This document shows, piece by piece, positions 1,338 to 24,642 of a stretch of 33,549 nucleotides of DNA (the first letter of the stretch is position 1; every line of letters begins with the position of its first letter). Origin of the DNA: Planctomycetota bacterium (GTDB taxonomy: Bacteria > Planctomycetota > Phycisphaerae > Tepidisphaerales > Tepidisphaeraceae); contig JBCDCH010000046.1 in assembly GCA_039182125.1 (NCBI GenBank), positions 1 to 33,549 of the forward strand, given 5' to 3'. The position numbers and the translations under genes are program-made. A model generated the notes under the pieces. It had not been told where the DNA came from, made no database searches, and worked only from the letters and a program-made list of their open reading frames with translations.

Positions 1338-1622
1338 CAGCCGACTCTAACCGGTCGGACGGCGACGGTCGCGAGCCGGAGCAAGGCGCTGATCGAAACG
1401 GCGCTCATCAGCGGAGCGCGGCTCGAGACAAGCCGGGACGGTTTGGTTGAGCTTGATCAGAAGCCGAACGCTCCGCGCGCGGTTCAAAAAGTACGAATCT
1501 TCCACGAGAAGTCGCCGATCCGCTTGTGCCATTTGCGGGCCGCAGTAGACTCAACACGGCTGTGTCTTCTGAACATTGATTTCGTTCGGGTTCATATTAA
1601 TTCCTCCGCACGGGGAACCGCA
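1338..1622. other. Intergenic region between truncated yifB and giant surface-protein gene
   Basis: These 285 bases separate two divergent genes and presumably hold both promoters. Open frames across it (one on plus is continuous with the giant gene, one on minus at 1347-1532) lack family motifs and are not credible genes. A run of G just before 1623 (GGGG at about 1613) may be a weak ribosome binding site. I could not place -35/-10 boxes with confidence. Confidence 0.4.
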
Positions 1623-10600: not shown

Positions 10601-11732
10601 GATCGACGAGGTAGGCGCGGTGACGCAAGCGTCACATAACTACGTCGACGGCGACGCCGCCTTCGATATCGTTGCCACCGCGCTCATCGCCGGCGGCGAA
10701 GAGGTGCAGGCCGACCCGTGGACGGTGCAGGTCCAGAACGTAGCCCCGACGATCGTGATCTTCTTTGGAGGGGGGCCGGGCGGCAATCATTCCGCCGTCG
10801 CGGGAGAAGCCGTTTCCTACTCGACCCTGATTGCGTTTGAACCTGGTTTGGACACCATCACGCAGTGGACCATCGACTGGGGCGACGGGCAAAGCCAAGT
10901 GATCAACGGCGGTTCGGTCAACGTCACGCATGTATACGACACGCCGGGCACCTACACGGCCACGGGCACCGTGACCGACGAAGACGGCACGTACGACCTG
11001 GCGGCCGTGCCAATCACGATCACGGCGCCGCCTCCGGTTGCCTTGGCGACCGGCCCTGAAACTCATCTCGAGTCAACCAATCCTTACGTTGACCTGTATC
11101 AGCTCGAACTTAGCGTTGCCAACGGTGAAGCAGAGAGTTGGGTGATCGATTGGGGCGATGGGTCCGCACCTCAGGCCTTTGGTGCCGTGCCTAATGCCCA
11201 ACACGTTTATGCCGATGGCGATCAACTGGTGACTATCCAGGCGACGGCGACCCTGACGACTGGGGAGCAGATCGACGCGGCGCCGTTCGACGTGATGATT
11301 CAAAACGTGCCCCCGCTAATCGGTGCGGAGGTCCTGCACGAGACCGGATACTTCACGATCGATTCTGCGGAAGTGGGGCAGACCGTACTTTTCCAAGGAT
11401 TCGTTAATTTCGATCCCGGTATCGATCGCGTGTCGGAATGGTTGATCGACTGGGGCGATGGTAATTCAGAGGTCGTTGCCGGCGAAAATCTGTATTGGAT
11501 CAACACCCCGCATATTTACACCATGCCCGGCACCTACACGATCACTGGCACGGCGACCGATGAAGACGGGACCTATGACTTTCCGCCCGTCACCCTCAAC
11601 GTGAACCCAGCGGCACCGGCCTTGTTGACGAGCGGTGGCTCGGGTGTCGCGGAAGACTCGTTCGAGAGTATCCGTGAACCCGTGGGTGTTGATGAGTTCT
11701 TTGATGATGTTGAGGTGCTAATGAGTTTGTGA
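1623..11732 (+). CDS. Giant LEPR-XLL surface protein with PPC, beta-helix and PKD repeats
   Basis: The product has 3369 residues from the ATG at 1623. I chose this start because it puts the planctomycetal LEPR-XLL motif (LEPRHLLSA, residues 44-52) near the N-terminus after a basic stretch; the frame is open upstream to 681 but there overlaps yifB. Domains in order: acidic repetitive beta-rich body (~60-2000) with two flagellin-hook-IN-like repeats (~612-783); EF-hand-like loops DLDGDGRLTLAE (~1546) and DTDNNGVVYIDE (~1930); PPC domain (~2014-2120); right-handed beta-helix with N/V/I ladders (~2123-2737) closing with AINIGGG...DAGAYEG; six PKD-like domains (WGDG cores) as three tandem ~190-residue units (~2757-3331). 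The C-terminus ends without a PEP-CTERM or other known anchor. It is likely an exported calcium-binding adhesin or matrix protein that may bind polysaccharide; the function is inferred. The beta-helix segment has AT-richer codon use than its flanks. Confidence 0.85.
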   Translation: MPQWCIWLCRWASLHARKEAIRDHRRYAYPGLAVSRRQASVEPLEPRHLLSASPHHSLKGLDDRRSSDDLLALEASAAPDTEAVGLDDAYAAQPRFEVSPPPAPLANTAEDRTLSVSEISVLRNGLGQLTDAIATSVSQLQDLDQVVEFLESQGVDDSEISPATVSGFLGELHDQIDTQLITPLQQYLDANAGSGTLTVQGVVNYLNATIAAWVEGEIEQLNAELEETGVRLRAPADAFITDGRIEFGLDFQFQRASRWDIQSDLLADNLENVGLDLDLNATVDAFAAVDFKLSFGVETDPTFGFPRFFGQIDEPIDLAIGAGINDGDFVARVGIFDVGLSDASADFALRAQIIPDSDSADSVVDASLEILEERLAFRLPLFLQIGTWTLPDPPALTLTVENLLTNPQPSIEYEGNLEGLQQFRTVSADGVIDLFQSVGSWLVRSAGESLGVDLAIADVNLSDYAVVGAIINHVILPNLRDDAGNPRFETVDDLLNLIDDFDASSDFLGSVTLDLEYDEAENQINLAFTAGDAQSDTTPLRADLDLGELLLLEVGTDLETSAAYDVAFDLSIDLRGGESSIVANGGQLPGDAIDILPTDGRLSADAVFRIGVAGLTTEEHQFFDITVSPDASNTSADHLIADINAAIASAGADAYVRAELTDDGQLRLADTTGRWAAGLLVLVPEIGRTLVGGSALPADGVTTEEASFLLSTDGQIYREIIVPPAADSPAPITSRADLVASIQSAIDAAGFVGQVFASVNHEGRLVLSSAADQPFVVLSAGTEPATYNDTGQQIGGIEGINPAPIGLVGHQEIAGTTPNAARTELRLAAVNTPRQSFTDRVTVNDLSASGSVVLSADPITADARLGFTDLTVVDGLANAHASFTFNHLNPATGEQEAVRLSELLDAVGSEGTAAFDLTFDSGAVLDLSNIQFANSELDQVPGIPGYRVEWADLTDLSTLVITQTQDFDALRAFAGITLNEFILVLDGAIEWFQELEKTELLSDELPVINKSVNDHIKLSEELSELRAHLIADPPESFESLVDEVTRYVKDRLGIDAEVEIKVSTDESTGDPADPDEPKKHEFRLDWDDTFEEEGELGIFLDAAVADGLGLTRDSAITAESDAERIQIKATADVDATFGVILPEGGLPEFYVKDDATFNASVLVDAEGLDLGLDLGSLPTLYTKDAIVRINDGVVEDDSEEGGAENESTEDQEVEYKPLTFNVTLKPDDDTTDGGNDDGRYGLFEALGQLNLAASGNVYAELPLFFPTPNASLGDPLVLAIDDISNPLETTTITGPNLEGLIAALNLEEDLTELPESWDELARYVENILDGEVFGIDLPFIGDDLREAANFMTNLRILTSAAFLGADLYDGQLHDDANLRDEVHDALWDALGHDEGGAGLILAPFDTDDPNPVQREAGTKDDILVELSEDELMITTRIGQTADLLDLDVDLDLGLPGLGLDINGDVKVEYGWDFDLQFGVIPGLGVFLVTDESDSELSADIRAYLPGGSGDDPFEATATMGFLRAKAMDDPDDPSEFTAAIDIDLHDLDGDGRLTLAEATYTGSRAPNRIVDFTINAELDANLKIVADTTVAGLPAIEFDVLVDWVFAPDADASEAEREAASRIGNVPEVRLENIVIDLSATLGTYVGPILAKIDRVIDPVRPALDALQDPIPVLSDLLDRDINFIDLARIFGYEETADFIDVASQIASLVSDAALVSNGGHEFKVPIGTFSTLFGGGINLDLRSPENDLSDLSPEDILQFFVPSGEPVSFDDPSPVSAYFNRIDNVGLALPLIDNPALAFNLLLGQDIPLLTWDWPAFELRYDLDPYPVYPIIPPFLFGGLQSGIAAGIDLGFGYDTRGYRQFQETGREDQLLNGFYISDTANADGTGPDVSEAYLSAYVAAVAEFNLFSVFRAGIRGGLFANFGLNLNDTDNNGVVYIDEFIDLIDNGGLFHTFGYEGELGGFVDAYVTIDLGIFKKTWRFDIAEVVFLEFEEVAGVDDRPTITDRFTGNGTRETAENLGLAPGLHLTGTAIRSAAEQDWYRFELADAEHLSVFVTARGGPAPDLSLYDANGDLISRQPGEFADGFLEATLPAGEYFLHLASHGPVAYDLEIVPHHRSETNVYYVAAPDDNDLTDNLRTTAAGRLDHDGRTADTPLPSIQAVLDRYNLNDDDMIVVEVGEYFGGTTIGSDDSGVTIAGSRQETVVGGRATPVNSSQWLIEGVPHAFIVDDAADVTLTDFNIVYASVGVDAESESRGLTVSNIVFGSPDRVGNGYDSSVPHISIKTSAEDGRFTGNVKIDGGFHPAFITGFGIHGSVIDNNQIYGAWAHAVQIPNSHNVSIVNNHIENAGGSGNGVINTGFLGGGLTTSKNTVIANNYFKYAYVPISGTHKNVHIYGNVFESYSVSLSSDSSGWVGVRDAASGETPNVFMDSISSSTRLSVVGDIVVAGNLFPASDSSSIDVPLISLSDGATLRDTQIIGAGFAVEAQDAHLENNYIRGTGVGTGVSVSGDSSVVGNRIEQLDVGIHATGGTIVSNNIVFGNQTGLDLVAYSNSGSDELIASNNIVYGNSTVGIQLYADNRRTPERKAVVAHNTVSGSDAPAIRIESDDVGDLVNIEVLNNIFVSQNSEALILADTIPLPTGNAEPFVSDRNVFYVDGAAGVIRYQDQSGMSLADWHTATGLDGGSVTGDPQFVDVLGPDGVPGFNLDGESDDDFRLLPGSPAINIGGGSSAVPTDIDGKPRDATPDAGAYEGDDTPAAVATATGPEVTSEQRYYGFYYLTLTLENGDLEKWEIDWGDGTGLQEFVTANPNAFVGHQYTDGDGSAVTIQATAVLTNGLRVEADPHVLTVNNIAPYLHISLSGVETSGGISTATTADEVGFRGTVGFDPGEDTVTNWTVNWGDGEQTSVDGASANLSHTYSAPGTYTISGTATDEDGTYAFSSQTVVIEQAIIATATGPATHNENRYGFAPYRLNLSLEHAELAGWRIDWGDGTIDEVGAVTQASHNYVDGDAAFDIVATALIAGGEEVQADPWTVQVQNVAPTIVIFFGGGPGGNHSAVAGEAVSYSTLIAFEPGLDTITQWTIDWGDGQSQVINGGSVNVTHVYDTPGTYTATGTVTDEDGTYDLAAVPITITAPPPVALATGPETHLESTNPYVDLYQLELSVANGEAESWVIDWGDGSAPQAFGAVPNAQHVYADGDQLVTIQATATLTTGEQIDAAPFDVMIQNVPPLIGAEVLHETGYFTIDSAEVGQTVLFQGFVNFDPGIDRVSEWLIDWGDGNSEVVAGENLYWINTPHIYTMPGTYTITGTATDEDGTYDFPPVTLNVNPAAPALLTSGGSGVAEDSFESIREPVGVDEFFDDVEVLMSL
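8160..9700 (+). other. AT-richer beta-helix segment inside the giant gene
   Basis: Within the giant surface-protein gene, codon use shifts from almost exclusively G/C-ending codons (before about 8150) to many A/T-ending ones (ATT, TTT, GAT, AAT, TCT), returning gradually to GC-rich coding by about 9700. The segment encodes most of the parallel beta-helix. The long antisense open frames typical of the GC-rich flanks also shorten here. This is compatible with a domain acquired by recombination. Confidence 0.6.
9891..11612 (+). repeat. Three tandem ~570-bp double-PKD repeats
   Basis: Three consecutive units start near 9891, 10465 and 11029. Each begins with A-x-A-T-G-P-E/A and contains two PKD-like domains with IDWGDG or VNWGDG cores. 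Each ends with the pattern PGTYT-x-(S/T)GT-x-TDEDGTY, at about 10386-10440, 10952-11005 and 11527-11580. The DNA is still recognisably similar over those ends, so these are internal duplications of a two-domain block rather than six independent domains. Confidence 0.85.
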
Positions 11733-12318: not shown

Positions 12319-13131
12319 TTAGAGCGTCATTGTTGGCGATACGGGCAGTTGTACGGAGATCAATACGGACCCGACGTCATTGGGCTGGAGGGTGTGGTGG
12401 AGGCATCCGATGACGTCACCGTGCGCGATGGTGCCGGTGACACCAGGTATGTTGACGCCGAAGCTAAGCGATGGGCACCAGCGTCGTGGGGGTGTCGCGC
12501 TGGGTAGGGCTGCGTCGTTGTGGAGGTGCCCTGTACAAAGCAGTTGAACTTTTTTTGAAGCCAAGCGTTCGGTCAGGGCCGCGCGGGGTTGTGGGTCGAC
12601 GGGCCAATACGCGAGCGCGTCGCGACGCTCGTTCGCGGCGTCCACGCAAGCGGGAACGTCCAGCGGCATGTGCATAAAAACGATGGCCCGTTCGCAGTCG
12701 GCGAGTTGATCGTCCAGCCAACGCAACTGGGCTTCTTCTTCTTCCCACCCGCTGCCGGCGATTTGGCTATTCAACCCGAGCACCGCGTAGGTGTCCAGGT
12801 CTTCCCGGAACCACCCATCTCCGAAGGCCTGACGCCACGCATCGAAGCGCTTTCGGGTGAGCGCGTCGTGCTCGATACCGGGCTTATTACCCACGTCGTG
12901 GTTTCCGGGAACAACGCGGGTGGGCGCGACGGCTTCGAGTGTTTCGACGAAAGCCTGGCCGATGGCGATCTGTTCCGGTTGGCACGGGGCGTCGTCGCAA
13001 AGGTCTCCGGAGACCACGATCAGGTCGGGCGCGTAGCTAACAGCCGTCTTCACAACGATCGCGCAGCGTTCCGCGTCGTGTTCGGGCATCCGCCCCAAGT
13101 GCAGGTCCGAGAGTTGGAGGACGCCGCTCAT
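12319..13131 (-). CDS. Calcineurin-like metallophosphoesterase
   Basis: The 270-residue protein carries the full metal-binding set of calcineurin-like phosphoesterases: D9-x-H11 (SDLHLG), G42-D43 (VVSGDLCDD), G76-N-H-D79 (PGNHDVG), H154 (FMHMPL) and G201-H-L-H204 (CTGHLH). These two-metal enzymes cut phosphomonoesters or diesters, commonly cyclic nucleotides or nucleic acids; the substrate cannot be told from sequence. No signal peptide is evident, so it is probably cytoplasmic. Its ATG overlaps the stop of the upstream dehydrogenase gene by four bases (ATGA, 13128-13131), so the two are likely co-transcribed and translationally coupled. Length is normal for the icc/CpdA-like group. Confidence 0.88.
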   Translation of the reverse strand: MSGVLQLSDLHLGRMPEHDAERCAIVVKTAVSYAPDLIVVSGDLCDDAPCQPEQIAIGQAFVETLEAVAPTRVVPGNHDVGNKPGIEHDALTRKRFDAWRQAFGDGWFREDLDTYAVLGLNSQIAGSGWEEEEAQLRWLDDQLADCERAIVFMHMPLDVPACVDAANERRDALAYWPVDPQPRAALTERLASKKVQLLCTGHLHNDAALPSATPPRRWCPSLSFGVNIPGVTGTIAHGDVIGCLHHTLQPNDVGSVLISVQLPVSPTMTL

Positions 13132-14672
13132 GAGTTGTCCCCACTCTTCCAGACCGGGTCGTGATGGGCTTCACGGGCCGAGGCGAACCAGCGGGTCAGC
13201 GTCATCTTCTGCTTGGTATAGAAGTGGACGCCTTCGGTGCCCTGGATGTGGAGGTCGCCGAAGAACGATTGGTTCCAGCCGGTGAACGGCAGCCAGGCCA
13301 TGGGCGCGGGTACGCCGACGTTGACGCCGATCATGCCGGCGTTGAAGCGGCGCTTGAACTCCCGTGCCGCGTATCCGTTATTGGTAAAGATCGAAGCGCC
13401 GTTGCCGTAGGGGCAGCCATCGCCTACGGCGATGGCGTCGTCGAGGGTGGCGACACGGACGACCGAGAGCAGCGGTCCGAAGATTTCGTCGGTCCAGAGT
13501 TTCATGTCGGTCGTGACATGGTCGACAACGGACGGCCCGAGCAGGAAGCCGTCGGCGTCGTTTGCGGTGGGTAAGGATCGGCCGTCCAGCGCGACGGCGG
13601 CGCCTTCCGTTTTGGCGATATCGAGGTATGCGGCCACCCGATTTCGGTGGTCGGCGTGGATCACCGGGCCCATTTCGGCGGCGTCGTTGCCGTCGGTAGG
13701 GCCGGCGTCGATCTGGCGACCGTGCGCCACGAGCCGCTCGACCAACGCGTCGCCGATATCTCCGACGGCCAACGCGACGCTGCCCGCCATGCAACGCTGC
13801 CCGGCGCAACCGAACGCGGACGCGGCGAGTGCCTTGACGGCTTGATCCAGATCGGCGTCGGGCATGATGACCAGATGGTTCTTCGCGCCGCCGGCGGCCT
13901 GGACGCGCTTGCCGTGGGCCGTGCCGGTGGCGTAGACGTACTTCGCGATCGCCGTGGAACCGACGAAAGAGACGGCGTCCACGTCGTCGTGCGTGAGCAG
14001 CGCGTCGACCATGGGCTTACCGCCGTGTACCAGGTTGAAAACGCCATCGGGCAGACCCGACTCGATCAACAACTCCGTCAGACGCACCGCCGAGAGCGGC
14101 ACCTTCTCGCTGGGCTTGAGCACGAACGTGTTCCCGCAGGCCAAAGCGATCGGGAACATCCAGAGCGGCACCATGTGCGGGAAGTTGTACGGCGTGATGC
14201 CGACGCACACGCCAACAGGGTGGCGGTTGGTCTCGCCGTCTACGCCCTTGGCCAACTGCGGGAAGGTGTCCCCGGCAAGAAGCGCCGGCACGGACGCCGC
14301 GTACTCGACCATTTCCAGGCCGCGTTGCACCTCGGCGCGGGCTTCGGCGTGCGTCTTGCCGTGCTCCCGGGTGATCAGCCGAGCCAGTTCGTCGAATCGG
14401 CTGGCAATCTTTTCGCGGAAGGTGAACATGACCCGAGCGCGTTCGACGGCCGGCGTTTCCGCCCAGGCCGGAAGCGCCCGCTTAGCGGCTTGTACGGCTG
14501 CGTCCGCGGCGTCGGCTTCTTCCAGCGGAACCCGCGCGATCCGCCGCCCGTTCGATGGGTTGAACACGTCGCCGTGTTGTTCGGCGTTGCCCGCTGACCA
14601 GCCCCCACCGATGAAGCGGGGCACGGGCGTGGGGTCGGCGATATCGGCGGCGGACGGTTTGGCGACAGTCAT
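13128..14672 (-). CDS. mmsA: CoA-acylating (methyl)malonate-semialdehyde dehydrogenase
   Basis: The 514-residue product is an aldehyde dehydrogenase of the methylmalonate-semialdehyde dehydrogenase type. Visible features are GITPYNFPHMVPLWMFPIA and KPSEKVP (NAD site), SFVGSTAIAKYVY, GGAKNHLVIMPDADLD, and the catalytic cysteine C294 in GCAGQRCMAGS. The family oxidises malonate semialdehyde to acetyl-CoA, or methylmalonate semialdehyde to propionyl-CoA, using NAD+ and CoA with loss of CO2. Beside a pyrimidine operon that ends in beta-alanine transamination, it supplies the final step. The ATG at 14672 has an AGGAAA ribosome binding site upstream. It is divergent from the operon (161-base gap), and its stop overlaps the phosphoesterase start. 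Confidence 0.92.
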   Translation of the reverse strand: MTVAKPSAADIADPTPVPRFIGGGWSAGNAEQHGDVFNPSNGRRIARVPLEEADAADAAVQAAKRALPAWAETPAVERARVMFTFREKIASRFDELARLITREHGKTHAEARAEVQRGLEMVEYAASVPALLAGDTFPQLAKGVDGETNRHPVGVCVGITPYNFPHMVPLWMFPIALACGNTFVLKPSEKVPLSAVRLTELLIESGLPDGVFNLVHGGKPMVDALLTHDDVDAVSFVGSTAIAKYVYATGTAHGKRVQAAGGAKNHLVIMPDADLDQAVKALAASAFGCAGQRCMAGSVALAVGDIGDALVERLVAHGRQIDAGPTDGNDAAEMGPVIHADHRNRVAAYLDIAKTEGAAVALDGRSLPTANDADGFLLGPSVVDHVTTDMKLWTDEIFGPLLSVVRVATLDDAIAVGDGCPYGNGASIFTNNGYAAREFKRRFNAGMIGVNVGVPAPMAWLPFTGWNQSFFGDLHIQGTEGVHFYTKQKMTLTRWFASAREAHHDPVWKSGDNS

Positions 14673-14833: not shown

Positions 14834-15706
14834 ATGGCCCGAATCGTCCGCGGCGCGCTGATCCAGGCGACGCTTTGTGAACCCGTGACTTCCGGCGTCC
14901 AAAAGGTCAAGCAGGCGATGATCGACAAGCACGTCGAGTTGATCGCCCAAGCGGCGAGCCAGGGGGCGCAGGTCTGCTGTCTGCAAGAGTTGTTTTACGG
15001 CCCGTACTTCTGTGCCGAACAGGACGCCAAGTGGTACGAACTCACCGAGCCCGTGCCGGATGGGCCGACCACCAAGCTCATGATGGAGCTGGCGAAGAAA
15101 CACCGGATGGTCATGGTCGTCCCGATGTACGAGGAGGACATGACCGGCGTGTACTACAACACCGCGTCGGTGATCGACGCCGACGGCACGTACCTCGGCA
15201 AGTTCCGCAAGATCCACATCCCGCACTGCGATCCCGGCTTCTGGGAGAAGTACTACTTTCGCCCGGGCAATCTCGGATACCCCGTCTTCGAGACGAAGGT
15301 CGGCAAGGTCGGCGTGTACATCTGCTATGACCGCCACTTCCCCGACGGCGCACGCTGCCTCGGGCTCAATGGCGCCGAGATTGTGTTCAACCCCAGTGCG
15401 ACCGTGGCGGGGTTGAGCGAATACCTCTGGAAGCTCGAGCAGCCCGCTCACGCCGTAGCCAATCAGTACTTCGTCGGCGCGATCAACCGCCCGGGCTGGG
15501 AAGAGCCTTGGAAGACCGGCGAGTTCTACGGCCAGTCGTACTTCTGCGACCCGCGCGGCCAGATGGTTGCCCAGAGCGATAAGCGAACCGACGATGACAT
15601 CGTGATCGCCGACATGGACCTCGACCTGATCCGTGAGGTGCGAAACACATGGCAGTTTTTCCGTGACCGTCGACCGGAAACGTACGGAGCAATTACGGCG
15701 CTGTGA
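14834..15706 (+). CDS. Beta-ureidopropionase (nitrilase superfamily)
   Basis: The 290-residue protein has the nitrilase-fold catalytic triad E52 (LQELFYG), K126 (KFRKIHIPH) and C164 (YICYDRHFPDGAR). Family hallmarks GYPVFETKVGKVGVYICYD, NGAEIVFNPSATVAGLSEY and GAINRPG fit N-carbamoyl-beta-alanine amidohydrolase, which hydrolyses N-carbamoyl-beta-alanine (or the beta-aminoisobutyrate analogue) to the beta-amino acid, CO2 and ammonia. The close alternative, N-carbamoylputrescine amidase, is less likely given the dihydropyrimidinase and dihydropyrimidine dehydrogenase in the same operon. It is cytosolic and first in the operon; its stop overlaps the GTG of the permease by four bases (GTGA), so translation is probably coupled. 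Confidence 0.88.
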   Translation: MARIVRGALIQATLCEPVTSGVQKVKQAMIDKHVELIAQAASQGAQVCCLQELFYGPYFCAEQDAKWYELTEPVPDGPTTKLMMELAKKHRMVMVVPMYEEDMTGVYYNTASVIDADGTYLGKFRKIHIPHCDPGFWEKYYFRPGNLGYPVFETKVGKVGVYICYDRHFPDGARCLGLNGAEIVFNPSATVAGLSEYLWKLEQPAHAVANQYFVGAINRPGWEEPWKTGEFYGQSYFCDPRGQMVAQSDKRTDDDIVIADMDLDLIREVRNTWQFFRDRRPETYGAITAL

Positions 15707-17196
15707 GTTCTTCCGCGAGTAACCCGACTTCGGGGCTGCTCTACGGCCTCGACGACAAGCCGCCGCCCGGCAAGGCCGCGGTACTCGGCTTACAACACGT
15801 GTTGACGATGTTCGGCTCGACCGTGGCGGTGCCGCTGCTGCTCGGGCCGCCGATGGGGCTGGACACCGCGGGCACGGCGCTGCTGATTTCGTCGGTGATG
15901 CTGTGCTCGGGCGTGGCGACGCTGCTGCAGTCCACGTTCGGTTCGCGGCTGCCGATCATCCAGGGCGTGAGCTTTTCGTTTCTTGCGGCGTTCTTCGCGA
16001 TCATCGCGGCGGTGCATCCCGAGGGCGAGCCGGTCACGCCCGGGGCGGCGATGCCGTATATCGCGGGAGCCGTAATCGTGGGCGCGGCGTTCGAGATCGT
16101 GATCGGCTTTACGGGGCTGATGGGTCTGGTACGGAAGGTGCTGTCGCCGGTGGTGGTCGGGCCGGTGATCATGCTGATCGGCCTGGCGCTCTACCAGGCG
16201 GGGGCGCCGGTAGCGGCGTCGCACTGGCCGATCGCGATCCTGACGCTGGTGCTCATCGTCGTTTTCTCGTTCATGCTCGCCCGCAAGGCCCTGGTGTTCC
16301 GCATGTTCCCGATGCTTTTGGCCATCCTGGGCAGCGTCGGGGTCTGTGGGTTGATGTCGATCATCGGCGTGTTCGGCGACGGCCACCCGGCCCGCCCGGA
16401 CCTGTCGGCGTTCGGCGAGGCCGACTGGGTCCGCGTCGACACGCTGGTGTTCCCTTGGGGCCTGCCGAGGTTCGAGTTGGCCTTCGTCGTGGCGGTGCTT
16501 GCGGGTTTTCTCGCGTCGATGATCGAGAGCTTCGGCGATTACCACGCGTGCAAGCAAATGGCCACGGGCGACGGCGCGGACGGCAACGACCCCAACCCCA
16601 CGCCGGCCGAGATCTCCCGCGGCATCGGATTCGAGGGCGTCGGTTGTGCGCTCACGGGCGCGTTCGGCGGGTTCAGTTCGACGTCGTACTCGGAAAACGT
16701 CGGACTGATCGGCCTGACCCGCGTCGGCTCGCGTTATGTCGTGCAGATCGCCGCGGTCTTCCTGATTCTGCTGGGCGTGTTCGGCAAATTCGGCGCCTTG
16801 GCGGCGGCGATCCCGACGCCGGTGGTCGGCGGGCTCTATTGCGCGATGTTCGGGCTGATCGCGGCGGTCGGCGTCCGGCAGTTTGCGCGGGCCGACCTGA
16901 CCAGCGACCGCAACCTGTTCATCGGCGGCTTTGCGCTGTTTATGGGCATCAGCGTTCCGTACTACTTCGCCAACGGCGGAGCCGACGCGGTCAGCGCGAC
17001 GCTCCCCGCCTGGGCGGCCGACCTGACCAACGCGTTGGGCAACACCGGGATGGCCGTCGCCGCGATCCTGGGGATCACGCTGGACAACGTCGTGCCGGGC
17101 ACCAAACAAGAACGCGGTCTGTTGCACACGCCAAGCGTCCTGATACCCGAGGCCGACGACGTGGACGCCGTCCCCGCGATCGGAGAGAACCGATGA
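15703..17196 (+). CDS. NCS2-family uracil/xanthine permease
   Basis: The 497-residue hydrophobic protein has about a dozen membrane segments and NCS2 (nucleobase-cation symporter 2) signatures: QHVLTMFGSTVAVPLLLGPP near the N-terminus, QGVSFSFLAAFFAI, and the family motif SENVGLIGLTRVGSR (E331-N332). Members import uracil, xanthine or uric acid with protons across the inner membrane. In this operon the likely substrate is uracil or thymine (inference). The start is GTG at 15703, overlapping the previous stop; the stop TGA at 17194-17196 overlaps the ATG of the aminotransferase (ATGA). Its position between pathway enzymes suggests uptake is made in step with catabolism. Confidence 0.9.
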   Translation: MSSSASNPTSGLLYGLDDKPPPGKAAVLGLQHVLTMFGSTVAVPLLLGPPMGLDTAGTALLISSVMLCSGVATLLQSTFGSRLPIIQGVSFSFLAAFFAIIAAVHPEGEPVTPGAAMPYIAGAVIVGAAFEIVIGFTGLMGLVRKVLSPVVVGPVIMLIGLALYQAGAPVAASHWPIAILTLVLIVVFSFMLARKALVFRMFPMLLAILGSVGVCGLMSIIGVFGDGHPARPDLSAFGEADWVRVDTLVFPWGLPRFELAFVVAVLAGFLASMIESFGDYHACKQMATGDGADGNDPNPTPAEISRGIGFEGVGCALTGAFGGFSSTSYSENVGLIGLTRVGSRYVVQIAAVFLILLGVFGKFGALAAAIPTPVVGGLYCAMFGLIAAVGVRQFARADLTSDRNLFIGGFALFMGISVPYYFANGGADAVSATLPAWAADLTNALGNTGMAVAAILGITLDNVVPGTKQERGLLHTPSVLIPEADDVDAVPAIGENR

Positions 17197-18572
17197 CTGC
17201 TTCCCGACGAACCATTTCGCTTCCCCAAAGCCATCACCGGCCCGCCCCCTACGACGGGCCGCCGCGCGACGAGGTGCTCGCGCTACGGCAACAGTACGTC
17301 AACCCCGGCGTGCTCAACTATTACCGCGATCCGCTGATGATCGTCGAGGGGCACATGCAGTACCTCTTCGACGAGACGGGGCGTAGGTATCTCGACGCTT
17401 TCGCCGGCATCGTGACCGTCAGCGTGGGGCACTGCCACCCGCACGTCGCCGAAGCGGTCAAGCAACAAGCCGGCACGCTCCAGCACGCGACGACGATCTA
17501 CCTCCACCCCACGCTGCCAAAGTTCGCCGAAAAGCTCGCGAGCAAGATGCCGACCAACGCCGACGGCGTCCCGCTGGACAAGACCTACTTCACCAACTCC
17601 GGCAGCGAAGCCAACGAACTCGCGATGCTCATGTCGCGCGAGTTCACCGGCCACGCCGACGTGATCGGCCTACGCAACGGCTACCACGGGGGCACGCCGA
17701 ACACCATGGGGCTCACCGCCCACGGCACCTGGAAGTTCCCCAGCAACACGCCCGGCGGCATCCATCACACGCATGCCGGATATTGCTATCGCTGCCCGTT
17801 CAATTTGCGTTACCCCTCCTGTGGCGTCAAGTGCGCGCAAGACCTTGAGAACGTCATCGCTTACCAGACGCCCGGGCAGGTCGCCTGTTTCATCGGCGAG
17901 CCGATCCAGGGCGTTGGCGGCGCGGTTACACCGCCCAAGGAATTCTTCCAGATCGTCTACGACACCGTTCGCAAGCACGGTGGCCTCTGCGTCGCCGACG
18001 AAGTTCAGGGCGGCTTCGGTCGAACCGGCGAGCATTACTGGGCGCACCAGAATTGGGACGTGAAGCCCGACATGATCGTGATGGCGAAAGGCATCGGCAA
18101 CGGCGCCCCGCTCGCGGCCGTCACGACCACCGCCGACGTCGCGCAGACCATGACGAAACGCGTCCACTTCAATACCTACGGCGGTAATCCGGTTTCCATG
18201 GCATCCGGTCTGGCAACCATGGAGGTCATCGACGCCGAAGGCATCCAGGCGAACGCCAAGCACGTCGGCGGGCTTCTCAAAGACGGGTTGCTTGCGCTGC
18301 AAGACAAGCACGAAATCATCGGCGACGTCCGCGGCATCGGCCTGATGCTGGGTATGGAACTGGTGCGCGACCGCCGGACCAAGGAGCCGGCCGGCACCGA
18401 GGCCGCCGATCTCATGGAAATGACCAAAGCCCGTGGCTTGATCCTCGGCAAGGGGGGGCTCTACGGCAACACGATGCGCATCAAGCCGCCGATGTGCATC
18501 ACGCCCGACGACGCGGAGTTCCTGATCGCCACGGTGGACGCCTGCCTGACCGATATCGAAGCCAAACGCTAA
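17193..18572 (+). CDS. Class III aminotransferase, AGXT2/PYD4-like beta-alanine aminotransferase
   Basis: The 459-residue protein starts at the ATG overlapping the permease stop; the frame is open far upstream but only as a shadow of the permease. It is a class III PLP-dependent aminotransferase: TNSGSEANELAMLMSREFTG (cofactor phosphate loop), DEVQGGFGRTGEHYW, the PLP lysine K299 in MAKGIGNG and NTYGGNPVSMA. Stretches such as DAFAGIVTVSVGHCHP, LQHATTIYLHP and MRIKPPMC closely recall eukaryotic alanine-glyoxylate aminotransferase 2 and plant PYD4. In context it should move the amino group of beta-alanine (or beta-aminoisobutyrate) to pyruvate or another oxo acid, giving malonate (or methylmalonate) semialdehyde for the divergent dehydrogenase. 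Confidence 0.88.
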   Translation: MTASRRTISLPQSHHRPAPYDGPPRDEVLALRQQYVNPGVLNYYRDPLMIVEGHMQYLFDETGRRYLDAFAGIVTVSVGHCHPHVAEAVKQQAGTLQHATTIYLHPTLPKFAEKLASKMPTNADGVPLDKTYFTNSGSEANELAMLMSREFTGHADVIGLRNGYHGGTPNTMGLTAHGTWKFPSNTPGGIHHTHAGYCYRCPFNLRYPSCGVKCAQDLENVIAYQTPGQVACFIGEPIQGVGGAVTPPKEFFQIVYDTVRKHGGLCVADEVQGGFGRTGEHYWAHQNWDVKPDMIVMAKGIGNGAPLAAVTTTADVAQTMTKRVHFNTYGGNPVSMASGLATMEVIDAEGIQANAKHVGGLLKDGLLALQDKHEIIGDVRGIGLMLGMELVRDRRTKEPAGTEAADLMEMTKARGLILGKGGLYGNTMRIKPPMCITPDDAEFLIATVDACLTDIEAKR

Positions 18573-18584
18573 ACGAGAACCGCT

Positions 18585-19742
18585 ATGCCTACCCTCGAAA
18601 CCACCGTCGACGGGATCCATTTCCCAAACCCCTACGTTATCGGTTCCGGCCCGCCGGGAACCAACCAGAAAGTCATCAACAAAGCCTTCAGCGAAGGTTG
18701 GGGAGGCGTCATCGCCAAGACCGTGTCGCTCGACGCGTCGAAGGTGATCAACGTCGCGCCGCGCTACGGGAAGCTCACCGGCGTGAACAAAAAGGAGGTC
18801 TTCGGCTGGGAAAACATCGAGCTGATCGCCACGACGTCTTTCGAGGATTGGCTCGACGACTTCAAGGCGGTCAAAGACGCGTATCCCGATCGCCCGCTCA
18901 TCGCTTCGATCATGGAGGAGTTTGACCGCGACGCGTGGATTGAGATCGTCGAGCGTTGCGAGGCGGTGGGGGTCGATGCCTTCGAGTTGAATTTCTCCTG
19001 CCCGCACGGCCTACCCGAACGCAAGATGGGTGCCGCGATGGGTCAGGATCCCGATGTGCTCGAAGAGGTGACCGGTTGGGTCATGGCCGCCGCGACGATC
19101 CCGGTCTGGGCCAAGATGACTCCCAACGTCACGCACATCGAAGACCCGACCCGTGCGGCGTTGCGGGCCGGTGCCCACGGGGTGAGCGCGATCAACACGA
19201 TCCGCAGTGTCATCGGGGTCGACCTCGAAACCCTCCGGCCGATGCCGACCGTCGAAGGCTACACCACGCCCGGCGGGTACTCCTCCGTGGCGGTCCGTCC
19301 GATCGCTTTGAGGATGGTGATGGAGATCGCCACGCTGATCCGGGAAGAATTTGACGGCCAGCGCTCGATTTCCGGCATCGGCGGCGTCGAGACCGGCGGC
19401 GACGCAGCCCAGTTCATCCTGCTCGGGGCCGACACCGTGCAGGTGTGCACCGGGGTGATGAAGATGGGATACAAGATGGTTAAGCCAATGATCGATGAAC
19501 TTCTGGAGTTTATGGACAAGCACGGCTTCGAGACGCTCGACGATTTCAAAGGTCACGCCTTGCCCTACTTCACGACGCACGCCGAGTTGGTTCGTATGCA
19601 GGCCGAATCCCAGGAGAAAAAGCGTGCGGCCGTGGCCGCCAAGGCCGCGGCGAAGGAAGCCGCCGCCGCGGGGATCACGAAAGACGACAAGTGGGACGGC
19701 GACGATTTCGTCAAGCAGTCCGACGAACTGGCCGGGGATTGA
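18585..19742 (+). CDS. Dihydropyrimidine dehydrogenase, plant PYD1-like, no ferredoxin domain
   Basis: The 385-residue FMN-type TIM barrel resembles the dihydropyrimidine dehydrogenase core. NPYVIGSGPPGTN and AKTVSLDASKVINVAPRYG form the N-terminal barrel; C139 in FSCPHGLPERKMGAAMGQ matches the catalytic cysteine of the family; AKMTPNVTHIEDP, SAINTIRS, GIGGVETGGDAAQFILLG and VQVCTGVMKMGY line the FMN site. It should reduce uracil or thymine to the dihydro form. Bacterial PreA carries a C-terminal two-[4Fe-4S] domain and works with PreT; here the C-terminus is instead an Ala/Lys-rich helix followed by KWDGDDFVKQSDELAGD, with no cysteine clusters and no preT nearby. This matches the layout I remember for plant PYD1. 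The electron donor is unknown. It lies 12 bases after the aminotransferase gene. Confidence 0.88.
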   Translation: MPTLETTVDGIHFPNPYVIGSGPPGTNQKVINKAFSEGWGGVIAKTVSLDASKVINVAPRYGKLTGVNKKEVFGWENIELIATTSFEDWLDDFKAVKDAYPDRPLIASIMEEFDRDAWIEIVERCEAVGVDAFELNFSCPHGLPERKMGAAMGQDPDVLEEVTGWVMAAATIPVWAKMTPNVTHIEDPTRAALRAGAHGVSAINTIRSVIGVDLETLRPMPTVEGYTTPGGYSSVAVRPIALRMVMEIATLIREEFDGQRSISGIGGVETGGDAAQFILLGADTVQVCTGVMKMGYKMVKPMIDELLEFMDKHGFETLDDFKGHALPYFTTHAELVRMQAESQEKKRAAVAAKAAAKEAAAAGITKDDKWDGDDFVKQSDELAGD

Positions 19743-19774
19743 TCCGCTTCTGTTCACCGCATCGCGAGCAAGCC

Positions 19775-21157
19775 ATGTCTCTCCTCATTCACGGTGGCAC
19801 CGTCGTCAACGCCGACAGCACGTTCCGGGCCGATATCTACTGCGAGGGCGAAACGATCACGCGGATCGCGACTCGTATCGATCCCGCCGAGGTTCAGGCC
19901 GACCGCGTGGTGGACGCGACGGGCAAGATGGTCTTCCCGGGCTTCATCGACCCCCACGTGCACATCTATTTGCCGTTCATGGGGACCTACGCCAAAGACA
20001 CCTACGCGACGGCGTCTAAGGCCGCGGTCGTCGGCGGCACCACCATGATGATCGAGATGTGCTGCCCGGCTCGCGCCGACGAGCCGGCCGAGGCGCTGGA
20101 CCTTTGGGCGGGTAAGGCCGAGGGGCAGTCGGCGTGTGACTACAGCTTCCACATGGGCGTGACGCGTTTCGACGACTCGGCCGAAGCCCAGCTCCGCAAG
20201 ATCGTTGAGCTGGGCACGCGCTCGTTCAAGGTGTTCTTGGCCTACAAGGGCGCGTTCGGCGTCACCGACGACGAGTTGTACGGTGTGCTGCGCCTGGCCC
20301 GTGAGTTGGGCGTTGTGGTCACCGCGCATTGTGAGAACGCCGATTTGGTTGCCGCGCTCCAAGCCAAGCTGCTGGCCGAAGGCAAGACGGGCCCGCAGTG
20401 GCATGAGCCGTCACGTCCGCCACGGGTCGAGGCCGAGGGCGTGCACCACTTCTGTACGTTCCTGGAACTCACCGGCGCGTCAGGCTACATCGTGCATACC
20501 TCGTGTCGGGACGCGGTCGAGGCCGCGTTACCGTTCCGGGCACGGGGGGTCGACGTTGATCTCGAAACCGTTATCCCCTACCTCACGCTCGACGACACTT
20601 ACGCACAACGCGAGGACTTCGAAGGCGCAAAATACGTCATGAGTCCCCCGATTCGTTCAGCCGAGCATCAGGCGTACTTGTGGGATGCGCTCCGGGCCGG
20701 CCACATCGCAACGGTGGCGACGGATCACGCGCCGTTTGATTTCGTAGGGCAGAAGGAGATGGGCCGGCCGCCCAACGGCGACTTCACGACGATCCCCAAC
20801 GGCATCCCGTCGGTTGAGCACCGCGTCACGCTGTTGTGGACAAGGGGCGTTGCGGCCGGCCGGCTCGACGTGCACCGGTTCGTTGACGCCGCCAGCGCTT
20901 ACGCCGCCAGGCGTTTCGGCCTCTTCCCGCGCAAGGGTGTGGTCCAACTCGGGGCGGACGCGGACCTGGTCGTTTGGGACGACGCGTATCGGGGGAAGAT
21001 CTCTGTCGACACGCACCACATGGCTACCGACTACAGCGGCTTCGAAGGCGTTGAGATCACCGGCCGTCCTTCGCTCGTTACCGTCCGCGGGACTGTCGTT
21101 GCGGAGCACGGTCGATTCATCGGTCAACTCGGCCACGGTCGACGCCTCGACCGGTGA
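19775..21157 (+). CDS. Dihydropyrimidinase (hydantoinase family)
   Basis: The 460-residue amidohydrolase starts at the ATG 32 bases after the previous gene; the longer open frame overlaps that gene and is not used. Metal-site features of cyclic-amide hydrolases are DPHVHIYLPF, the carboxylated-lysine motif FLAYKG (K158), TAHCEN, IVHTSCRDAVEAAL and ATDHAPFDF. The enzyme opens dihydrouracil or dihydrothymine to the N-carbamoyl-beta-amino acid, which the first gene of the operon then hydrolyses. Length is normal for the family. It is the last gene of the operon, with no clear hairpin terminator downstream. Hydantoinase or another cyclic-imide hydrolase is the alternative, but the neighbours favour the pyrimidine role. 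Confidence 0.9.
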   Translation: MSLLIHGGTVVNADSTFRADIYCEGETITRIATRIDPAEVQADRVVDATGKMVFPGFIDPHVHIYLPFMGTYAKDTYATASKAAVVGGTTMMIEMCCPARADEPAEALDLWAGKAEGQSACDYSFHMGVTRFDDSAEAQLRKIVELGTRSFKVFLAYKGAFGVTDDELYGVLRLARELGVVVTAHCENADLVAALQAKLLAEGKTGPQWHEPSRPPRVEAEGVHHFCTFLELTGASGYIVHTSCRDAVEAALPFRARGVDVDLETVIPYLTLDDTYAQREDFEGAKYVMSPPIRSAEHQAYLWDALRAGHIATVATDHAPFDFVGQKEMGRPPNGDFTTIPNGIPSVEHRVTLLWTRGVAAGRLDVHRFVDAASAYAARRFGLFPRKGVVQLGADADLVVWDDAYRGKISVDTHHMATDYSGFEGVEITGRPSLVTVRGTVVAEHGRFIGQLGHGRRLDR

Positions 21158-21615
21158 GGCCGCCGCCATCGACACGCAAGCGACTCTCCAATAGCTGCGA
21201 CCGCCTGATAAGACCTGTTGGCGTCTCGCCCAGGGAGAATTCATCTGCTTGCGGACTCACATACGACTTGGCTTGTCTGTCATAGCGGTGACATGCTCAA
21301 ATCGCCCGCTTGCAATGGATTGCGGAGGCGAACCCTCGGATGGACCTGAATCCTCGGGGTTTGCGATTGATTTGCATTCGAGCGACGGCAGTATTTCCTT
21401 CCTTTACCCCAGACTCTCTCACGACAACTGGACCAATGAAGGGTCATGCTTGGTTGGAAACCGTGTTGGGCGTTAAAGGTCTGTATAGCGCAGGACTGAT
21501 GCCGTAACCGAAACCTCATGTCACGCTCGAAAACTCACGGTTCCGTCATTGTCACGATCGATGAGTGAATCGATGCGCTGTTTTGCGCCGGAACCCTGGA
21601 GCAAGTATCAACTGA
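21158..21615. other. Intergenic region between pyrimidine operon and beta-glucan locus
   Basis: About 460 bases lie between two convergent genes. Short frames on both strands (for example 21249-21476 plus, 21280-21519 minus) have no family motif or start signals, and I do not call them. No strong terminator hairpin or tRNA was found by eye. Confidence 0.45.
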
Positions 21616-23574
21616 CTATTCAAGGATTGGCTCAAAAGAAAATCTCATCAGGTTGTACCCACTTCCGCATAGAACCCTCATCTTTTGAACACCCGCTTCC
21701 AAGGTGACTTCGGTCGTCAGGTCGGTCCAATCCTGCCAGTTAGCGGTTGCGGTTGTATTCAGCGGGCCCGTTAGGTCTTCTCCATCGAAAGCGATCCGGA
21801 GTTCACCGGGTCCGCCCGCGTGGCGGATCCTGAGGCGGTAACTGCCTGGCTTTTGGACTTCCACTGTGTATTCGAGCCATTCGCCTTCATTGATCCAAGC
21901 GACGGCGCAGCCGCCTTCGGAACTTGCCTGAATATCGACTCCTTCGCGGGGGCGATAGAACCCGTCGATATTGTCTGGTTGACTGTCGTGGTACGCGACG
22001 CCTTCGCCACCGTGGTCGAAATCAACCGCGTCGATGATGCCGGGGATCGCCAGCGGCTTGCCGTAGAACGGGCCGGCCGCAGGTAAAGGTTCGACGATGG
22101 CGGCGGGGGATTCGGGTGCCGCTTGAGGCATCGAGCCATTTAGGATCACGTAGTTTGTTTCGATGCTGCTCGCGTCGTCCGCATTCGCGACCAACCTGTG
22201 TTGTTCTAAATCTGCAACCTCACGAAAGATGCTTCGGACCAAGTGGCCGCCACCCCCGACCGACCGGAGCACCACGTCGCCGTTCGTACGTTCGATCCAG
22301 TGAAAAGTCTCATCCAGCCCGATCGTCGGACTGACTGGAGTGAGTGCGTCCGTATTGCACGCGGCGGAGACGTAGAAGCCGTTGCTTGCCTTGAAGGCGA
22401 CTAGATCGATGCCACCTTCGACACGCTCCAGGATGAATCGATCGTCTTGATCCCCTGTATATGCGTCGAGATTCGCGATCAGATCGCCGCCCCCCGGTGA
22501 CGACACAAACTTCTCGCGGCCGCGATCGAAGATCGCGACCGAAGACCCATGCTCCGGGATGTTCGGCGTGCCCTTGGCGGGCCAATCACATGTCGGTTCG
22601 TCGGGTGTCCACACGACCCCAGCTTTGTCCAAACGGTACGCGAGCCCGGGCAGTTCGGCGTCGTTAGCGGCTAGCCACTGGAACTGGAGCCAACCCGTGT
22701 GGAACGATTCGAACATCGCGTTGTACGACTCGTCACCGTTGATGGAAGGGTCCGGTACGGTGTCGCCCGGCCAGAATTCGGTGCATAGAGTTGCCGGATA
22801 TCGGAGGCTTGACTGGAACAATCGCAGGCAAGCCTCGATCCCTTCGCGTGTTTCGTAACCGTGCCAAGCGATGGCGGCGTTCTTCCAATCAACGCCTTTC
22901 GCGGTCATCATTTTGACGGCATCGGCGGCGGCCCCTTCGTAACGGAATCCCATATATGAGCAGAGCAGGATCATCGTGTCCGGTGCAGCAGCACGGATCG
23001 TGTTGTACATGAGGACCTGATTGTCCCAGTCTTCGGGGAGCCAGTGGGCGGCCGTATGCGGCACCGGTTCGTTTTTGGCCTCATAGAAAACGTGGGTTTC
23101 GTCTTTGTACCTCGGCCCGTAGAACTTCCAGAAATCCAATATGAAGTCCATCGAGTGGATGCTTCCGTTCTCTCCATTACAGCCGATCGTGATGATCAGG
23201 TAGAGGTTCGCCTTCGCGCAACGCTCCACCAGAGTGTCGCACCACTCGACGTTGTATCCGACCGGATCGGTGTTGCCCGAAGAGTCGCCTTCTAAGTAAA
23301 TATGCAGCGCGTTGTAGCCATAGTCTTGCGCGAGCGCGTTGAGCGATTCCTGCGAAGGCATGAACCTATCCTGACTGCCATAAGGGTCGCCGCCGTCCCA
23401 AGAGATGCTCACGCCACGCATGAGTGTTCCCTTATCGGTTAACAAACGATTGAAACCGAGGCTGCTGTCGATGACGGGGCGGTCGCGTTTGGCTTGGGCT
23501 TGGTTTGTGAACCCAAACGCCAAGGCGAATGCGACCAGCAGACTCAACGAAACCGTCCTAAAGATTTGTTTCAA
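21616..23574 (-). CDS. Secreted GH5 glycoside hydrolase with fascin-like and CBM6 modules
   Basis: The 652-residue protein starts at a TTG (23572-23574) with GAGGG upstream and has a signal peptide (about 1-28, LLVAFALAFGFTNQAQA). Modules: GH5-type TIM barrel (~35-335) with acid/base E169 in EAKNEPVPH and nucleophile E266 in LCTEFWPGD; a fascin-like beta-trefoil (~344-470, DLVAFKASNGFYVSA); a CBM6 (~506-650, LAIPGIIDAVDFDHGGEGVA and AWINEGEWLEYTVEV). GH5 enzymes retain configuration and cut beta-linked glycans; CBM6 modules bind beta-glucans, xylan or agar. With the GH16 and second GH5 nearby, a beta-1,3- or mixed-linkage glucan target is most likely, but the exact linkage cannot be read from the sequence. 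The gene is convergent with the pyrimidine operon. Confidence 0.85.
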   Translation of the reverse strand: MKQIFRTVSLSLLVAFALAFGFTNQAQAKRDRPVIDSSLGFNRLLTDKGTLMRGVSISWDGGDPYGSQDRFMPSQESLNALAQDYGYNALHIYLEGDSSGNTDPVGYNVEWCDTLVERCAKANLYLIITIGCNGENGSIHSMDFILDFWKFYGPRYKDETHVFYEAKNEPVPHTAAHWLPEDWDNQVLMYNTIRAAAPDTMILLCSYMGFRYEGAAADAVKMMTAKGVDWKNAAIAWHGYETREGIEACLRLFQSSLRYPATLCTEFWPGDTVPDPSINGDESYNAMFESFHTGWLQFQWLAANDAELPGLAYRLDKAGVVWTPDEPTCDWPAKGTPNIPEHGSSVAIFDRGREKFVSSPGGGDLIANLDAYTGDQDDRFILERVEGGIDLVAFKASNGFYVSAACNTDALTPVSPTIGLDETFHWIERTNGDVVLRSVGGGGHLVRSIFREVADLEQHRLVANADDASSIETNYVILNGSMPQAAPESPAAIVEPLPAAGPFYGKPLAIPGIIDAVDFDHGGEGVAYHDSQPDNIDGFYRPREGVDIQASSEGGCAVAWINEGEWLEYTVEVQKPGSYRLRIRHAGGPGELRIAFDGEDLTGPLNTTATANWQDWTDLTTEVTLEAGVQKMRVLCGSGYNLMRFSFEPILE

Positions 23575-23700: not shown

Positions 23701-24546
23701 TTAAGGCGCTGCAGGGTAGATGTTCCGTTTAAGAATGGTGCCGATCGCTTGACTAGTGCCGTGCCCATCCGCCCAGACGAAGTTCGCGTTCTGCTCATTG
23801 GCGTGTCGCCAGCGAACGGTCTGAGTGCCGACGATGTTCTTGAAGTCCTGGTTGAAACGGACCGTGATGGCTTCGTTGGGATCAACGCCTGAAACATTGA
23901 TGTAGTCGGCCGCGGTCTTGGGTTGTGGAGCACCGCTGGCGGGGGGATCGATCCGATTAAGGCCGGCGAAGGTATGGCCCTGAGGGATACGCCCAGTGAA
24001 AACGCCCGGATTGGCGTATTGCGTTGAGTCGGCCAGCATGACCATCTCGGAGTTACTTTTTAGCGTTTCGGTGGTCATCCATGCCAGGTTGCTTTGAGGC
24101 ACGCCGTTAACAACATGTGGCAAAACCATCACATTGGCACCGTACGTGGCGTCGTGCTCGTCGGTATCGACGTCTGCTTCGGGGCAGCGTAGTGCGTCGG
24201 AAAACACGACGTCTTCGTTCCCGACGGAGTCAGGCTCGCCGAAGAACGTCTGCAGTTTTTCGTTCTCAATAATCGAACTGACAAGCCGGAACCAGTCGTA
24301 GCCGACACTGTCGAAATTGTCGTGCGGTGGATAATACTGGTTGTAGTCATTGTTGTAGACGCCTACCGCCAGTCCCATCTGTCGGATGTTCGATAAGCAG
24401 GCCATACTCCGTGCTGCCGAGCGGGCGCTTCCCAGGGCAGGTAGGAGCAGGCCGATGAGCAGCGCGATGATGGAGATCACCACGAGTAGCTCAATGAGCG
24501 TGAAGGCTCGACGGGACCGACGGCGGAACGTTCGCGTGTGTTTCAT
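23701..24546 (-). CDS. Type II secretion-like pseudopilin with H-x-DG C-terminal motif
   Basis: The 281-residue call starts at the ATG at 24546, giving a short basic leader ([13 protein letters not shown]) before the prepilin site and hydrophobic helix [16 protein letters not shown]; an upstream in-frame ATG at 24609 would add 21 non-typical residues. After the helix come [19 protein letters not shown] and [11 protein letters not shown], standard for the large planctomycete pseudopilin family. Near the C-terminus [17 protein letters not shown] is the H-x-DG motif, with 11 rather than the usual 9 residues between H and DG. Such proteins are processed by a prepilin peptidase and are thought to form periplasmic pseudopili or extracellular fibres. 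Many copies exist per genome, often near carbohydrate-related genes; its role here is not known. Confidence 0.9.
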
Positions 24547-24642
24547 GGGTTGATGATCCAAAGCCAAGGGTTGTTCGTGGTGATGCACGGGCGCGAGCGA
24601 AAAAGCCACCGCCTGCCAACGCGGCGAACGGTGCCTGGATGG

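Follow-up and report, generated by a model that had tools for sequence, protein, structure and literature searches.

A probable plant-type dihydropyrimidine dehydrogenase without an iron-sulfur domain in a predicted uracil operon of a Planctomycetota bacterium, and its candidate electron donors

The window analysed here, a stretch of 33,549 nucleotides of Planctomycetota DNA, encodes what is very probably a dihydropyrimidine dehydrogenase (DPD) of the plant type, devoid of an Fe-S domain and working in uracil breakdown. As judged from sequence comparisons, this protein is a member of a large clade of similarly short enzymes, and not a stripped version of the Escherichia coli PreA. As to the supply of electrons, the reading that we favor, while giving it only an even chance, is that the enzyme is fed by a general soluble carrier, with ferredoxin as the first candidate; the donor, the direction of the reaction and the function of the conserved C-terminal tail are what we infer in this reading. 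The features in question, in the coordinates of the window, are as follows.

13128-14672, minus strand: divergent methylmalonate/malonate-semialdehyde dehydrogenase, CoA-acylating (TIGR01722, 613 bits versus a cut-off of 448.5)
14834-15706, plus strand: carbon-nitrogen hydrolase, presumed beta-ureidopropionase (PF00795; role suggested by the operon)
15703-17196, plus strand: NCS2-type nucleobase permease (PF00860; substrate presumed)
17193-18572, plus strand: class-III aminotransferase, presumed beta-alanine aminotransferase (PF00202; role presumed)
18585-19742, plus strand: Fe-S-less (plant-type) DPD, 385 amino acids
18603-19553, plus strand: FMN/uracil-binding barrel of the DPD, residues 7-323 (phmmer alignment to residues 536-851 of pig DPD)
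18999-19001, plus strand: codon for C139, the equivalent of C671 of pig DPD (alignment; invariant in 47 sequences)
19578-19655, plus strand: Ala/Lys-rich helix and linker, residues 332-357, of a length that varies across the family (AF2 helix 332-357)
19683-19730, plus strand: conserved C-terminal tail motif D367-L382, D..W.GD.FV.Q...L (alignment)
19775-21157, plus strand: dihydropyrimidinase, the next pathway step (TIGR02033, 487.7 bits versus a cut-off of 393.25)

The best PDB match of the protein is pig DPD (205 bits, residues 7-323, the FMN domain), and the NCBIfam model for PreA, NF006183, scores 398 bits versus a cut-off of 335, over positions 3 to 331 of the 422 in the profile. Among the models for dihydroorotate dehydrogenases (DHODH), neither NF002702 (dihydroorotate oxidase, which we take to represent class 1A; 83.8 bits versus 301) nor PRK07259 (class 1B; 166.8 bits versus 269) reaches its cut-off, while the Pfam Dus match, at 20.2 bits, is slightly below its cut-off of 20.4. 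In the alignment, S21, K45, N77, E79, I81, N136, S138, C139, K177, N204, and T205 are identical to S550, K574, N609, E611, I613, N668, S670, C671, K709, N736, and T737 of pig DPD, eleven ligands of FMN or of the substrate; the initial annotation was right in describing an FMN barrel with C139. Over the 46 pig positions compared, 29 are identical and 17 are different, the latter including A551 (G22 here), T735 (I203), G767 (S234), and T793 (I265). Pig DPD chains are also the top PDB matches of the AF2 model in Foldseek, with TM-scores by query length of 0.62-0.71 and rmsd values of approximately 8-12 A; the mean pLDDT of the model is 79, and the active-site loops 140-151 and 223-231 are below 50.

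The absence of the Fe-S domain, also claimed at the outset, is borne out by several observations. The C-terminal ferredoxin part is missing, as the NF006183 match ends at position 331 of 422, and the only cysteines of the protein are C125, C139, and C288. No CxxCxxC pattern is present in any of the six frames of positions 19401-21300, so the domain is neither concealed by a frameshift nor located within the next gene, and an oversight of this kind is ruled out. The protein therefore possesses the barrel and the DPD active site of PreA as modeled by NF006183, without the two-[4Fe-4S] C-terminal domain. Profile coverage, cysteines and the downstream scan equally speak against any ferredoxin domains of its own, such as those of the clostridial PydAc, and Pfam recognizes no NAD-binding domain. 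The name "NAD-dependent PreA" that comes with the curated model is unsupported for the short clade.

The genomic context is that of a pathway. Hydrolase, permease, aminotransferase, DPD, and dihydropyrimidinase genes follow each other in this order on the same strand; the dihydropyrimidinase and the semialdehyde dehydrogenase pass curated cut-offs, and the permease matches the purine/pyrimidine permease model NF037981 (66.5 bits versus a cut-off of 40). The hydrolase passes the cut-off of none of its 11 NCBIfam matches, the best being N-carbamoylputrescine amidase (249 bits versus 410), and none of the matches listed for the aminotransferase (25 of 69) is over its NCBIfam cut-off. This set would take uracil to acetyl-CoA, pointing to uracil reduction as the probable direction of the DPD reaction. 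Similar neighborhoods are found elsewhere: in the 47 loci with flanks of at least 5 kb on each side, the window included, a dihydropyrimidinase gene is near the short DPD gene in 37 and an aldehyde dehydrogenase gene in 36. The window also contains, ahead of the operon, an open reading frame of 3683 amino acids (681-11732), as well as a GH5-type cellulase with a CBM6 domain (21616-23574, minus strand; Pfam) and, beside the latter, a DUF1559 protein bearing a prokaryotic N-methylation motif (23701-24609, minus strand; Pfam).

The short form is widespread. We scanned 84,980 species genomes using patterns based on the window protein (one of the six from its tail), a choice that favors close relatives, and obtained 161 encoding stretches. 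In all of the best 80 loci of these 161, which were retained, the DPD gene is short (366-395 amino acids, one cut by a contig end), and in none is an Fe-S motif found beyond residue 300. Among 61 searched relatives from the family of the window genome, 11 match at E <= 1e-40, seven of these being short and four with Fe-S domains, and this family thereby adds five full-length short copies and a partial one to the 80 loci. Of 294 genomes sampled evenly across the phylum, 39 match at E <= 1e-60, the short form accounting for 21 (the window genome included) and the Fe-S form for 18. In total, 106 short sequences, 105 of them distinct (L014 and L110/L143 come from one and the same contig), were collected, mostly from Verrucomicrobiota and Planctomycetota, and these included named strains of Roseibacillus, Luteolibacter, and Haloferula, according to record titles. 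In a tree built from the barrel only, from which the partial L011 is excluded and in which L137, cut by a contig end, is counted as a long form, the 106 short sequences are separated from 17 Fe-S PreA sequences with a support of 0.999 and an edge length of 0.47, the median barrel identity to these 17 being 43%. The support for this split is 1.0 when a provisional Arabidopsis PYD1 sequence, which is not a database copy, is added; it falls on the short side. Set against six Fe-S sequences, 20 selected short sequences and the provisional plant sequence share 16 invariant barrel positions at which all six differ, and seven more of this kind are located past residue 320, where the pig row lacks letters. 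As the short form, along with its tail, recurs in 105 distinct sequences, the form seen in the window is neither a chance event nor a local loss.

A few records around this clade deserve mention. The Rhizobium sp. ACO-34A plasmid (L141, 3992-5098) encodes a second DPD-like protein without an Fe-S motif (368 amino acids, 33% identical), its gene being flanked by an ABC transporter gene on one side and by genes for an AsnC-type regulator and a D-amino-acid oxidase on the other; it is placed outside the short clade. The only proteobacterial title among the best 80 loci of 161 is Magnetospirillum sp. MAG (L089), whose neighborhood resembles those of Opitutae, suggesting either an incorrect title or binning or a transfer of genes. 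A 2.1-kb record labeled as a Salmonella phage (OR851329.1), almost half of which is a preA-like match, is probably mislabeled chromosomal DNA. Apparent DPD fusions of 800-870 amino acids at L120, L121, L123, and L128 were considered as Rosetta stones for the donor and dropped, because by eye their upstream part reads as an out-of-frame neighbor gene, rich in Arg and Ala and making no sense as a domain.

The C-terminus was originally described as an Ala/Lys-rich helix and an acidic tail with no cysteine pairs. The helix, lacking cysteine pairs, is indeed there, and AF2 places it at residues 332-357; however, what was described as an acidic tail ends in a conserved motif that had been missed. 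D367, W370, G372, F375, V376, Q378, and L382 are invariant in the 47 aligned sequences, and a looser version of the pattern is present in 105 of the 106 short sequences, the remaining one being truncated where its contig ends. Replacements of the FV of the tail are seen in deeper branches of the Planctomycetota, and L125 and L127 have the GD replaced as well. The distance from the L[VH]..Q motif to the last tryptophan varies from 12 to 39 residues, with a median of 21 (104 of 106 sequences in which the motif was found). The tail may be a docking or a dimer-clasping arm carried on a linker; this is a guess, since the tail motif, along with the active-site loops, is modeled with low confidence (pLDDT below 70 for the motif in both AF2 monomer models).

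We now turn to the partner. A Pfam scan of ten genes of the window (one of which has no Pfam match) reveals neither preT, nor pyrK, nor a ferredoxin reductase gene, and three PreT sequences used as tblastn queries have no match in positions 9001-30000, in agreement with the original claim for the vicinity. A preT/preA pair elsewhere in the genome, named beforehand as a finding that would speak against the initial reading, was looked for and not found: in a genome estimated by the tool as 100% complete and 2.46% contaminated, the window DPD (P0001) matches only itself at E <= 0.001, indicative of a single DPD gene. One protein in this genome carries Fer4_20, a domain also carried by the E. coli PreT (Pfam), and it is identified as the small subunit of glutamate synthase (TIGR01317, 715 bits versus a cut-off of 447.7); this match, along with two gltB pieces at contig ends, eliminates GltD as a PreT in disguise. 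PyrK has no match in the genome, while a DHODB_Fe-S_bind match is present in 53 of the 61 genomes searched, and of the seven short-form genomes of this set (G019 counted from a partial gene) four possess and three lack PyrK, which was accordingly rejected as the partner.

The same holds across the clade. PreT-like genes are found in the flanks of none of 105 short loci versus 14 of 22 Fe-S loci (Fisher p 2e-13), and, where flanks extend at least 3 kb on both sides, of none of 77 short versus seven of 12 Fe-S loci (Fisher p 1e-7), these tests being uncorrected for relatedness, with one short region represented twice (L014, L143), with the Fe-S set sampled differently, and with gene calling crude enough to miss the DPD gene itself in six of the 105 short loci. 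Two of the loci from the class of the window genome, L095 and L096, encode Fe-S PreA without a PreT-like gene within approximately 8 kb. Clusters recurring in at least five short loci, whose representatives were scanned with Pfam, include no flavin reductase, ferredoxin or flavodoxin; they represent pathway enzymes, permeases, deaminase, SufS- and NifU-like proteins, uricase and transthyretin-like enzymes, sigma factors, ABC ATPases, and others. The two with oxidoreductase names, GFO_IDH_MocA (five loci) and Rubrerythrin/VIT (six loci), are neither flavin reductases nor ferredoxins. Open reading frames with 4Fe-4S-like patterns occur in the flanks of four of 87 short loci (L014, L059, L085, L099), and with 2Fe-2S-like patterns in six (L039, L045, L058, L062, L066, L100); no recurrence was noticed between these 10 loci, and some are probably chance matches. 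SufS-like aminotransferase genes are found no more than 8 kb away from the short DPD in L017, L020, L023, L040, L043, L057, L065, L088, L089, and L090, mostly titled Opitutaceae or Opitutae, some along with a NifU-like gene; as hints of Fe-S chemistry, the SufS/SufU-like genes (10 and five loci, respectively) were set aside, being confined to a few lineages.

What the genome does encode is a single Fpr-like ferredoxin reductase with a tryptophan at its end (101.6 bits with the FNR model versus a cut-off of 390), a single stand-alone 2Fe-2S ferredoxin of 118 amino acids, and one small 4Fe-4S ferredoxin, meaning that the parts for a supply line from NADPH via the reductase to ferredoxin are in place. 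Flavodoxin is a poor candidate, the only Flavodoxin_1 match being WrbA-like (88 bits versus 141). Among 40 other short-form genomes, taken from the best 80 loci of 161, the Fpr-like reductase is detected in only nine (E <= 1e-10), and thus it is not a universal link, while a Fer2 domain is present in all 40, these matches being unsorted, of very varied sizes, and many in long frames. In the short-form genome G020 (86% complete), NAD_binding_1 is found only in a protein overlapping the PyrK match.

The mechanism to which we give an even chance would be the following. The operon pathway would start with the reduction of uracil, and presumably of thymine, to the dihydro compound by the FMN barrel, and would proceed via beta-alanine and malonate semialdehyde to acetyl-CoA. 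The enzyme has neither Fe-S clusters nor an NAD(P)H domain, and its FMN would receive electrons from a low-potential, soluble carrier belonging to the general pool, most probably ferredoxin, which would dock straight onto the barrel at the site freed by the loss of the Fe-S domain, with the tail, on its linker, as a possible docking or clasping arm. The initial annotation had listed a nicotinamide, a soluble carrier and a partner encoded elsewhere without choosing among them, and of these the direct use of nicotinamide is disfavored by assays of the rice enzyme (PMC9930899); overall, its interpretation is partly supported.

A dedicated reductase, specific to the short DPD, common to bacteria and plastids and encoded away from the operon, is a rather doubtful alternative that nevertheless needs to be weighed. 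The plant enzymes, from rice and Arabidopsis, show no activity by themselves, and it has been proposed that a partner is missing (PMC2713857; PMC9930899); the conservation of the tail hints that it binds something, and the lack of any recurrent partner near the short genes is as this model predicts. However, the Fe-S PreA usually has its partner gene adjacent, and the lack of linkage in 105 of 105 short loci would be unusual, while the partners already described, PreT and PyrK, were not found in the genome of the window. Direct reduction of FMN by NAD(P)H, as in the tRNA dihydrouridine synthases, which are FMN barrels reducing tRNA uridine without an Fe-S relay, appears unlikely. It needs no partner, consistent with the neighborhoods of the short loci, and the near-threshold Dus match described above would fit; yet no NAD-binding domain is recognized by Pfam, and the rice enzyme could use neither NADPH nor NADH, although truncation or the tag are possible reasons (PMC9930899). 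A reverse reaction, carried out by a dihydrouracil oxidase like the fungal enzymes, is very improbable: the latter are described as class-I-DHOD-like, with no sign of four [4Fe-4S] clusters (PMC9585004), but the operon hydrolyses dihydrouracil onward, a substrate that such an oxidase would drain, and the best matches, in both fold and sequence, are to DPD, with NF002702 falling far below its cut-off. Finally, a decayed or truncated PreA, suggested by nothing but the missing C-terminal domain, is hardly credible given the retained active site, the intact operon, and the conservation, tail included, across 105 distinct short sequences.

This leaves a comparison of the preferred, carrier-fed enzyme with the known systems. 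The bacterial PreA (NF006183) shares the homologous FMN barrel and the active-site residues with the window DPD, but the Fe-S PreA possesses a two-cluster C-terminal domain and often an adjacent PreT, and the window DPD has neither. DHODH of class 1B (PyrDB with PyrK) has the same fold and FMN site, and its PyrK was not found in the genome. In the fungal dihydrouracil oxidases, which are class-I-DHOD-like, the authors saw nothing to indicate the four [4Fe-4S] clusters that the mammalian DPD possesses (PMC9585004). A precedent for a ferredoxin feed is the clostridial PydAc, which lacks the NAD(P)H/FAD part, as does the window DPD; the clostridial enzyme works with reduced ferredoxin, from which it takes its electrons (PMC7332683). 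However, this precedent is imperfect, because the clostridial enzyme, unlike the window DPD, keeps its own ferredoxin domains (PMC7332683). In the same study, 3419 PydA sequences were sorted by the presence of a Pyr_redox_2 neighbor, most of those without one being clostridial, and the portions cited make no mention of a bacterial Fe-S-less type (PMC7332683). The Brevibacillus PydA was reported, like the plant PYD1, to lack an N-terminal GltD domain and to show no activity (PMC2713857), and Brevibacillus is counted among those with an adjacent Pyr_redox_2 gene (PMC7332683).

The enzymes of plants complete this comparison. PYD1 and the rice OsDHPD possess the same barrel and a similar length, with no Fe-S and no FAD/NADPH part, and the tail of PYD1, in the provisional sequence, matches that of the short clade; the plant form is plastid-targeted (PMC2713857), whereas the gene of the bacterial form shares its operon with those for the other pathway steps. 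The Arabidopsis PYD1 is described as a plastid protein without the GltD-like N-terminal part, with a partner not known, and, by personal communication, inactive on expression (PMC2713857). The rice enzyme has no sites for FAD or NADPH and none for Fe-S, the C-terminal ones included, and neither NADPH nor NADH supported its activity, truncation and tag being named by the authors as possible reasons (PMC9930899). According to the two papers, the plant enzyme made in bacteria was inactive, how it is reduced is not known, and there may be a partner yet to be found (PMC2713857; PMC9930899). A contrary statement is found in the introduction of PMC9585004, where the mammalian and plant enzymes are jointly credited with FAD and four [4Fe-4S] clusters. 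The provisional PYD1 agrees with five of the seven residues given in PMC2713857 (N256, T257, T280, E328, E239; I299 and H349 disagree), and its ends match the primer-encoded MASMSFA and TESMVSN, the published 3' primer being independent evidence for the latter as the plant C-terminus (PMC2713857). Its barrel is 53-68% identical to the short forms and 35-47% to the Fe-S PreA, and in the midpoint-rooted tree it falls within the short clade, at nodes supported by 0.615 (nearest neighbor), 0.946, 0.997, 0.999, and 0.872.

The Fe-S-less kind of DPD is already known from plants, while the open-access papers searched, subscription papers aside, contain no account of bacterial operons with such a member; no report of a short DPD in Planctomycetota or Verrucomicrobiota was found there, the only related mentions being of a hydrogenase domain and of preT as a gene label. 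It is tempting to speculate, tentatively and with more doubt than confidence, that Verrucomicrobiota, Planctomycetota, and plastids share an Fe-S-free feed, in which a flexibly linked D..W.GD...L peptide takes the place of the Fe-S domain and recruits a soluble donor common to all of them, and that, as part of the same tentative picture and on the provisional sequence, the plant gene may descend from within the bacterial short clade. If so, the donor of the plant PYD1 should be findable in a bacterium. A bacterial clade with the architecture of the plant enzyme, operon-like neighborhoods, and named strains represents a tractable system for finding this donor.
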